A DNA stretch of 36,825 nucleotides from Peptococcaceae bacterium BRH_c4a. GTDB taxonomy: Bacteria; Bacillota; Desulfotomaculia; Desulfotomaculales; Desulfocucumaceae. Under the pieces are notes generated by a model that worked only from the letters and a program-made list of their open reading frames with translations, made no database searches and was not told the DNA's origin. Location of the stretch: positions 1-36,825 of the forward strand of contig LADN01000072.1 of NCBI GenBank assembly GCA_000961585.1, given 5' to 3'. Positions 449 to 36,708 of the stretch are shown piece by piece; position 1 is the stretch's first letter; each line of letters begins with the position of its first letter. The position numbers and the translations under genes were made by a program.

Positions 449-500
449 GGGGACATTCCTCTGACCCCCAGAGGCAGTCACACTGGAGAGGTGTGTCCCC
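449..500 (+). repeat. GGGGACA hairpin repeat, left copy
   Basis: GGGGACA (449-455) pairs with TGTCCCC (494-500). Inside is a perfect CCTCTG/CAGAGG hairpin (458-463 with 469-474). The right-end copy (36177-36228) keeps both stems and differs mainly in loop bases. The compact, GC-rich, dispersed form is REP-like. That it is mobilised by a RAYT-type transposase is only an inference. Confidence 0.7.
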
Positions 501-552: not shown

Positions 553-602
553 ACAGCTTGGCGTAAATTACACACGTCGGCGGATCTTGGCAAGGGTGCC
601 TC

Positions 603-730
603 TAAGGAAAGGGGACACACCTCCTCTTCTTGAGTAACAGGGAAAGGGGACACACCTCTATTTGGAGCTTGGCTCTGGGGTCGGAGGAATGTCCCCAAAT
701 AATGAGGTAGTCGGAGGAATGTCCCCAATT
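603..730 (+). repeat. Cluster of GGGGACA motifs in the rpsB leader
   Basis: Two copies of GGGGACACACCTC (611-623, 646-658) are followed by two copies of the inverted form GAGGAATGTCCCC (684-696, 714-726). The GGGGACA and TGTCCCC cores can pair, so the leader can fold in several alternative ways. The same 13-mers form the hairpin repeat at 449-500 and at 36177-36228. No reading frame here has coding features. Confidence 0.75.
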
Positions 731-794
731 GATGGGGCTTTGCCGGAAATGATGTTGGCGGAGGACCAAAAACCAGGCAGGAAGGAGGTGTACC

Positions 795-1499
795 ATGGCT
801 GTAATATCAATGAAGCAACTCCTGGAGGCGGGGGTTCACTTCGGGCACCAGACAAGAAGATGGAACCCTAAAATGGCTCCTTTTATATTTACCGATCGGA
901 ACGGAATTTATATTATTGATCTGCAGAAGACGGTACGTAAGGTTGAAGAGGCCTACGAATTTGTCAAGTCTCTTTCAACCGGAGGCGAAACCATTCTTTT
1001 TGTGGGAACCAAAAAGCAGGCTCAGGAAGCGGTCAGGGAAGAAGCGGAAAAGTGTGGCATGTACTATGTAAACCAGCGCTGGCTGGGTGGAATGCTGACC
1101 AACTTCCAGACCATTCGCCGCCGCATCGACAGGCTCCACGAGTTGGAGAAGATGGAGGATGACGGCAGGATGAGTCTGCGCCCCAAAAAAGAAGTGGCGG
1201 AGCTCATGCACGAAAAGGAACGGCTGACAAAGTTCCTGGGCGGTATAAAGGAAATGCGCCGTTTACCCGGAGCAGTTTTTATAATTGATCCCCGCAAGGA
1301 AAGGATTGCTGTGGCGGAAGCGCGCAAATTGGGTATTCCCATCGTGGCAATAGTGGATACCAACTGTGATCCCGATGAAGTGGACTATATAATACCGGGT
1401 AACGACGACGCCATAAGGGCTGTAAAGCTGCTGACAGGCAAGATGGCTGACGCGGTGATGGAAGGTAGGCAGGGAGAGCAGTTAGCGGAACAGCAGTAA
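795..1499 (+). CDS. rpsB: 30S ribosomal protein S2
   Basis: This is a component of the small ribosomal subunit that binds late in assembly, near S1 and the mRNA exit side. The 234 residues match the usual length. Family signatures are visible: the N-terminal [20 protein letters not shown], then [19 protein letters not shown], and the C-terminal [13 protein letters not shown] with [10 protein letters not shown]. The start is well supported by AAGGAGGTG six bases before the ATG. It is the first gene of the rpsB-tsf-pyrH-frr series, but a 323-base repeat-bearing gap separates it from tsf. Its own leader carries the GGGGACA motif cluster, which is unusual for a ribosomal protein gene. Confidence 0.98.
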
Positions 1500-36165: not shown

Positions 36166-36264
36166 GTCTAAGCATCGGGGACATTCCTCTGACCCACAGA
36201 GGCAGTCACGTTAGAGAGGTGTGTCCCCTTTCCTTAGCCGGCAACGCCCTTCAGGGCGTTTTTT
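36159..36264 (+). repeat. GGGGACA hairpin repeat, right copy, with T-run hairpin
   Basis: From TTCCGCCGTCTAAGCATC onward this matches 431-507 closely. The outer stem GGGGACA/TGTCCCC (36177-36183 with 36222-36228) and inner CCTCTG/CAGAGG stem are kept. It is followed by a terminator-like hairpin AACGCCCT/AGGGCGTT (36243-36250 with 36253-36260) and TTTT. The left copy has no such terminator. Confidence 0.75.
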
Positions 36265-36682
36265 ATCGTTAAGGAAAGCATATACCATATTAAAGTATTA
36301 AAGCGCTAAATCGCCAAAGCATTTTTATGTAGCCCAGAGTTTTTCTGGGGTCGCTCCTGGGTCACTCTGTGGCCGGTGGAGGGGTTTGAGTCCGATCTAC
36401 TTATCCTCCGGCTGAACTGGCTCTAAGCTCGTCGCCTAACGGACTGCCGACCGCCTCCAACGCCGCATCCATGCGTCGATTCCGGCTACCGGCTGCGTCC
36501 TGCAGCCGGTTCGGCAGTCCGTACGGCTCTGTCGCCAAGAGCCAGATAACAGCCTCCGGAACATCCGCCTGGACTAAAACCCCTCCCCCTCACTGCATGT
36601 GCTGTGGGGTCGCTTTTATAGCAAGCTGTCACAATTCTGTCTCCTGAATTCTGAGTTCTGAGTTCCGCCGTCTACAAGACGG
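36265..36682 (+). repeat. Hairpin-rich GC element, right copy of the composite repeat
   Basis: A chain of inverted repeats is visible: CCCAGA/TCTGGG (36333-36338 with 36344-36349), GCCGG-t-GGAGG with CCTCCGGC (36372-36412), and a large imperfect pair, 36419-36453 with 36507-36543, that includes CGGACTGCCGA and TCGGCAGTCCG. Inside that pair are an imperfect CGCCGCAT/ATGCGTCG hairpin and a perfect ACCGGCTGC/GCAGCCGGT (36488-36510). Bases from about 36519 on resemble 278-437, and the heptamer array 36635-36669 ends TTCCGCC. No coding frame is credible. Confidence 0.7.
36635..36669. repeat. Heptamer array (5 units)
   Basis: TTCTGTC, TCCTGAA, TTCTGAG, TTCTGAG, TTCCGCC in exact register. Its length, position and final unit match the array at 403-437. 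Confidence 0.8.
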
Positions 36683-36708
36683 CAACGCCCGTCAGGGCGT
36701 TTTTTTCC
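36667..36708 (+). terminator. Twin hairpins with T-run ending the right repeat
   Basis: GCCGTCT-ACA-AGACGGC (36667-36683) is followed at once by AACGCCC-GTCA-GGGCGTT (36684-36701) and six more T. It looks like an intrinsic terminator, yet no gene lies between it and the previous terminators. It probably belongs to the repeat itself. Confidence 0.6.

Follow-up and report, generated by a model that had tools for sequence, protein, structure and literature searches.

What is the GGGGACA hairpin that stands near both ends of the window (the whole 36,825-nt stretch analysed here, contig LADN01000072.1 of Peptococcaceae bacterium BRH_c4a), and what moves it, if it moves? A sequence-only reading of this DNA had placed a hairpin motif with conserved stems at 449-500 and 36177-36228 and had taken it for a REP-like mobile element. 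The coordinates proved right. A 52-nt element with the ends GGGGACATTCC and GGTGTGTCCCC is present in two copies at these positions, and the copies differ at 4 of the 52 positions (20, 34, 35 and 37), every one of them in the loop. GGGGACA by itself is not enriched in the window, where 10 occurrences were found against a shuffle mean of 8.5. The 13-mers GGGGACATTCCTC and GGGGACACACCTC, allowing at most 2 mismatches each, gave 8 sites in the window as compared with 1.6 and 1.1 in shuffles, none of 100 of which attained 8. The predicted DNA folds of the two copies are stabler than most dinucleotide shuffles (z -2.4 to -3.7). Similarity among own copies reaches approximately from 441 to 508 around copy 1, from TAAGCATC to TTTCCTTA (main subfamily, 12 copies aligned). 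The observation is confirmed: GGGGACA hairpins form a genuine family of short DNA repeats that look mobile. The features of the window referred to below are as follows.

449..500, forward strand: element copy 1, 52 nt, left end GGGGACATTCC, right end GGTGTGTCCCC
589..744, forward strand: rpsB leader hairpin, arms at about 589-600 and 734-744, apical loop holding a nested pair of elements
611..726, reverse strand: outer element of the nested pair, left end 714-726, right end 611-623, split by the inner element
646..696, reverse strand: inner element, 51 nt, inside the loop of the outer element; the GGAAA side (641-645) seems its own
795..1499, forward strand: rpsB (ribosomal protein S2), downstream of the nested pair
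36177..36228, forward strand: element copy 2, 52 nt, between the GCCGTCTAAG and CTTAGCCGGC arms of a composite repeat
36403..36561, reverse strand: TwoAYGGAY RNA (RF01731, Rfam match), part of the composite repeat beside copy 2
36665..36690, forward strand: composite hairpin without element (GCCGTCTACAAGACGGC), an empty counterpart of the same kind as the hairpin around copy 2

A genome-wide count, the check proposed in the sequence-only reading, returned many further copies. In the 3.49-Mb genome GGGGACATTCCTC has 40 exact and 23 one-mismatch matches, as against 8 for the reversed pattern, and GGGGACA-N16-46-TGTCCCC pairs number 41, as against 1 for a control pattern, 36 of the 41 being exactly 52 nt long. 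These copies are dispersed and, with respect to long ORFs, mostly extragenic: ORFs of 150 aa or longer, which span 67% of the same 131 kb, enclose 3 of 40 own elements. Among the 40 copies with context, unique DNA is found on both sides of 10 and on at least one side of 25. Twenty left contexts form a single cluster, a composite repeat, indicating that a good part of the copies multiplied with the composite despite their dispersal. In two other elements of this genome (G000), at C10:16381-16674 and C89:34248-34542, about 200 nt of intervening sequence beside CTAG separates the two parts; it resembles another small mobile element.

The ends of the element differ and yet pair, the left being GGGGACATTCC and the right GGTGTGTCCCC, then [TA]TTCC. 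Stem statistics were obtained on 98 distinct elements from the own genome, its genus and family, and the phylum. Because GGGGACAT..TGTCCCC, or a longer pattern in relatives, served to retrieve them, the mode of retrieval accounts in part for the invariant foot and for the T.T mismatch seen at position 9. Positions 1-7 form G-C and A-T pairs that are invariant across the 98 elements, as selected; position 8 is T.G in 97 and position 9 the T.T mismatch in 96; positions 10 and 11 are C-G in 98 and 97, respectively. Beyond these, 96% of the elements have a pair at position 12 (T-A, C-G or G-C) and 97% at position 13 (59 C-G, 28 G-C, 3 T-G and 3 T-A); the highest values reached in 300 shuffles were 92% and 69%, respectively. 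Covariation at positions 12-13 is the strongest sign that end-to-end pairing is kept. The looser GGGGACA..TGTCCCC pattern additionally detected ATACC variants in one genome, G049. That loops vary while stems are conserved was borne out in 29 own copies, where the minor fraction averages 0.09 for loop positions and 0 for stem positions, a contrast that is partly built in, since these copies were chosen by their ends. A fold into two small separate hairpins per copy (CCTCTG..CAGAGG and CACAC..GTGTG) was rejected: it partly fits the own main subfamily and, by eye, is absent from the elements of relatives.

The boundaries are also conserved. In 36 own and 54 relatives' elements the left end is preceded by AT[CT], with A, T and C each at 76-96%, and [TA]TTCC trails the right end (87-100% per position). 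Direct repeats of at least 5 nt flank the element in none of 57 independent contexts, a set cleared of redundant contexts and of the 52 of 141 elements that have a second half-site no more than 45 nt away; 4-nt direct repeats occur in 2 of the 57, with 0.4-0.5 expected.

The rpsB leader discloses a further property of the element. Four loose half-sites had been claimed there; the GGGGACA half-sites at 611, 646, 684 and 714 actually make up two complete inverted pairs, that is, two complete copies, one nested in the other. The paralogue most similar to the outer copy is C41:57361, and the two match best once the inner copy is removed together with TTTCC (score 86; two alternative cuts score 78 and 81). 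The nested pair plus about 17 nt fills the loop of the leader hairpin. The leader common to relatives has a hairpin with a variable loop, which is short in 7 relatives; the closest rpsB among the relatives' contigs is that of Pelotomaculum sp. DTU098 (88%). The pair was presumably either inserted in the own lineage or lost in the others, and insertion appears more economical. These nested copies, if the mobile reading is right, show how a ribosomal-protein leader can hold more than 100 nt of mobile DNA in a loop. The leader itself (about 560-795, TACACACGC..GGAT..GCGGAGGA) is conserved and common to distant Bacillota, and it has no Rfam match at the gathering threshold.

Nesting is not confined to this leader. 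Denoting left and right ends by L and R, 55 end clusters in fetched regions of four genomes (G001, G002, G003 and G006) comprise 22 LR, 2 LRLR, 27 of the form L..LR..R with two or more ends of at least one kind, and 4 with L, R or LL alone. Nested multi-copy clusters thus number 27 versus 2 side by side, a ratio that is merely indicative and not a random-sample estimate, since the regions were picked by end pattern or for unpaired ends. The end order at G006:C38 is LLLRRRR. Another end lies within 45 nt in 52 of 141 elements, and inner copies often stand behind GATC or AATC within the loop of the outer copy. Simple nested insertion is not the whole story, since some clusters have unequal numbers of L and R ends (LLR 8, LRR 6). 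Hairpin loops in general are unsupported as an insertion target (57 contexts, Mann-Whitney p 0.25); 6 of the 57 contexts reach -12 kcal/mol, with 3.7% expected. In another genome six near-identical units are arranged in tandem with a 60-nt period, shortly before an apparent gene start (L379, G143:C17). Literature searches found no account of nested GGGGACA arrays or of asymmetric ends conserved phylum-wide. If the reading of the nested arrays is right, they record the order of insertion and make self-targeting directly testable.

The family extends far beyond this genome. The GGGGACA..TGTCCCC pair is present in 41 of 60 relatives (controls 0-4), with 80 and 88 pairs in genomes of the same genus, 137, 69, 15, 1 and 0 in those of the same family and up to 71 elsewhere in the order, counts that include members of other GGGGACA families such as GGGGACAGGCTACTTTT in G022. 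Of 398 genomes sampled across the phylum, 28 contain the strict end pair and 0 the reversed pattern. The elements of these 28 have other inner stems (CTG/CAG, CCC/GGG, GCG/CGC), and their minimal forms measure 29-31 nt. If this is right, recognition of one end pair holds throughout much of the Bacillota despite drift of the inner stem, and such conserved ends with a drifting stem would be an experiment of nature on the features that a single-strand transposase recognises.

Which enzyme, then, might move the element? The sequence-only reading had looked to a RAYT (Y1 transposase) gene flanked by the same stems. The own genome has one RAYT-type Y1 gene, which is cut by a contig end and has a different repeat downstream, GAGAACCGTCCCC, as well as a weak second Y1 match. 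Elsewhere, 40 RAYT-length Y1 genes were collected from relatives and element-rich genomes, leaving out Y1 fragments of 106 and 86 aa, an ORF clipped by a contig start (L361), a 151-aa ORF (L376) and the own contig-cut gene. ATTCC/ACACC ends surround none of the 40. The REP-like and mobile-looking character of the repeat thus stands, and a link to RAYT finds no support in these genes. Exact inverted repeats of at least 12 nt lie across 32 of the 40 genes, versus 8% in mismatched pairs, and in 22 of those 32 they contain GGGG[AT][CG]. In a wider set of 95 Y1 loci, in which some loci are the same gene and IS200-like TnpA genes are included, none has the element ends as its own; 1 of the 95 has them in the examined flank, several hundred nt away. 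One genome, G182 (96% complete), has 7 elements and 0 Y1 matches. In another, G044, GGGGACA ends (two left, several right), mostly GGGGACAC, surround a Y1 gene in nested order. Two of four Y1 proteins scanned gave weak C-terminal helix-turn-helix matches (Sigma70_r4, Bac_DnaA_C), below the Pfam cut-off. An autonomous element was sought at left ends (all places listed for G002, the first of those for G001), in 20 G002 regions chosen mostly for an exact right end that is missing or far off, and in 4 viral contigs, and none was found; plasmids searched for the element gave no match. One viral contig with an extra inverted left end (L348) has, by eye, no recognisable ORF between the ends.

Tens of extragenic copies made of two inverted palindromic halves at a fixed distance, probably moved in trans, are the mark of REPINs in the REP-RAYT systems, in which a 5' GTAG (or GTRG) tetranucleotide sits at the hairpin foot and the RAYT gene is flanked by the same repeats. 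The element resembles REPINs in its many extragenic palindromic copies and in its two inverted halves with fixed spacing (52 nt in 36 of 41). In contrast, it is flanked by AT[CT] and has no 5' GTAG tag, its hairpin forms mainly by pairing between the halves rather than within each half, and none of the 40 RAYT-length genes carries its halves. Non-autonomous elements of the IS200/IS605 type are similar in having hairpin ends, no target duplication (here, none of at least 5 nt in the 57 contexts) and a short fixed sequence before the left end, AT[CT] in this case; a parent with the element's ends, however, was not seen among the 95 Y1 loci scanned. The fixed-length target-site duplication of DDE-transposase MITEs is absent from the 57 contexts.

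Another close likeness is to the TIRtrons. In PMC3733652, Y1 genes of this kind are called TIRYT, their repeat motif is GGGGWSAS, and many of the repeats occur as dimers or clusters; most TIRYT are placed in TnpA-REP subclass 2.1 in PMC6006769. Like them, the element has inverted repeats tagged GGGG-A-C on their outer side (PMC3733652; PMC6006769) and occurs away from a gene, as dimers or clusters, and Y1 genes of such size in the same hosts bear these repeats. Its right end, GGGGACAC, fits GGGGWSAS, whereas its left end, GGGGACAT, misses the last position. The two ends are unequal (ATTCC versus ACACC), they have no gene between or beside them, and nested arrays of this kind are not mentioned in the available parts of PMC3733652 and PMC6006769. 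As a repeat flanking a subclass 2.1 Y1 gene the element was not encountered, either at the 95 Y1 loci or at the 40 RAYT-length genes. The GGGG[AT][CG] repeats at Y1 genes, the G044 locus and the published TIRYT motif nevertheless favour, as a best guess, action in trans by a TIRYT-like enzyme. Since the gene link came out negative, the element is filed as neither a REPIN nor a TIRYT member, and it may work like a REPIN or a TIR dimer.

Starting from what is observed, namely a repeat family with paired ends, conserved boundaries, no target-site duplication, extragenic position and nesting, I favour, at somewhat better than even chances, a non-autonomous REPIN-like palindrome of TIRYT type that is moved in trans by single-strand Y1 transposition and is prone to insert into its own loop. 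The single-stranded ends would pair into one hairpin with a constant 7-bp foot, a T.G / T.T kink and CC/GG, above which 2-3 further pairs would vary in sequence between lineages while remaining complementary. A Y1 (HUH) transposase, probably of the TIRYT/RAYT kind and with the GGGGAC tag at the ends of its own gene too, would recognise such hairpins in trans and cut behind AT[CT] at the left boundary and behind [TA]TTCC at the right one. Easy targets would be offered by the loops of copies already in place, and concentric arrays would result; a host function need not be invoked. Excision and insertion are here predicted from sequence. A broader hypothesis, which I put forward tentatively and at less than even chances, is that phylum-wide two-ended mobile hairpins transpose preferentially into their own loop, generating concentric arrays, and persist without a gene bearing their ends, being served in trans by a TIRYT enzyme with other ends or by another enzyme.

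An unlikely though serious alternative is that the element is mobile and moved by an enzyme other than a Y1 transposase, the GGGGAC likeness being convergence. The failure to find a Y1 gene with the element ends (95 loci, 40 RAYT-length genes) would be explained, as would the elements of G182, which has no Y1 match, and the asymmetry of the ends as compared with the mirror-like repeats at Y1 genes. Yet the GGGGAC tag is common to most Y1-gene repeats in the same lineages (GGGG[AT][CG] in 22 of 32), the missing target duplication speaks against most DDE transposases, and the G182 elements may be relics only. It is improbable, to my mind, that no transposase was involved and that the copies spread within larger repeats, with replication slippage or template switching at hairpins also making the nested arrays. 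The cluster of 20 own left contexts, together with 11 elements at most 250 nt from a TwoAYGGAY copy where about 1 is expected, does indicate that some copies rode on the composite repeat; the six near-identical tandem units of G143 (period 60) and the unequal ends (LLR 8, LRR 6), which suggest one-sided duplications, point the same way. Such passive spread, however, leaves aside the unique DNA that adjoins 25 of 40 copies (both flanks in 10 of them), and the same ends in 28 of 398 phylum genomes need transfer or sequence-specific recognition.

Less probable still is a functional RNA or DNA signal selected by the host, such as a terminator, an attenuator, an mRNA stabiliser or a protein site. 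Stem covariation might be read in this way, but it is equally expected if a DNA hairpin is the substrate; the stable predicted RNA folds are to be set against the lack of any Rfam family match for the element. The scarcity of copies in long ORFs and their presence in the rpsB leader also agree with a signal, whereas nested copies would be odd for one and the element is missing from the rpsB leader of 7 relatives. A terminator was rejected, the single call, at 485-505, being weak. Finally, the element might merely be part of the composite repeat containing TwoAYGGAY, since TwoAYGGAY is found at most 250 nt away from 11 of the 41 copies and the own-genome flanks GCCGTCTAAG and CTTAGCCGGC belong to the composite. 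The counts already disfavour this reading, which I hold to be barely credible: 30 of the 41 copies are not near TwoAYGGAY, distinct composite hairpins without the element number 26 versus 8 with it, and the element occurs in genomes without TwoAYGGAY matches (G003, G006).

The composite repeat deserves mention in its own right. It measures about 400-450 bp and combines terminator-like hairpins with a GGATTCTG-like tract. The own genome has 115 TwoAYGGAY matches, 98 of them above the gathering score, so that an RNA family listed in Rfam as cis-regulatory (RF01731, type Cis-reg) behaves as a dispersed repeat. TwoAYGGAY is also multi-copy in G017 (at least 38), G016 (at least 28) and G013 (at least 10), 38 candidates per genome having been scored. 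Twenty of the 115 matches start within 600 nt of a contig start, with about 2 expected, and the repeat probably breaks the assembly. In the window, a truncated reverse-strand piece of the composite with TwoAYGGAY sequence is discernible by eye at about 279-357, upstream of copy 1. Two TwoAYGGAY copies (L067 and L068), unlike the others, lie beside TTAACTTATTAACTCAACTTTCG-like sequences, which are inverted in L068.
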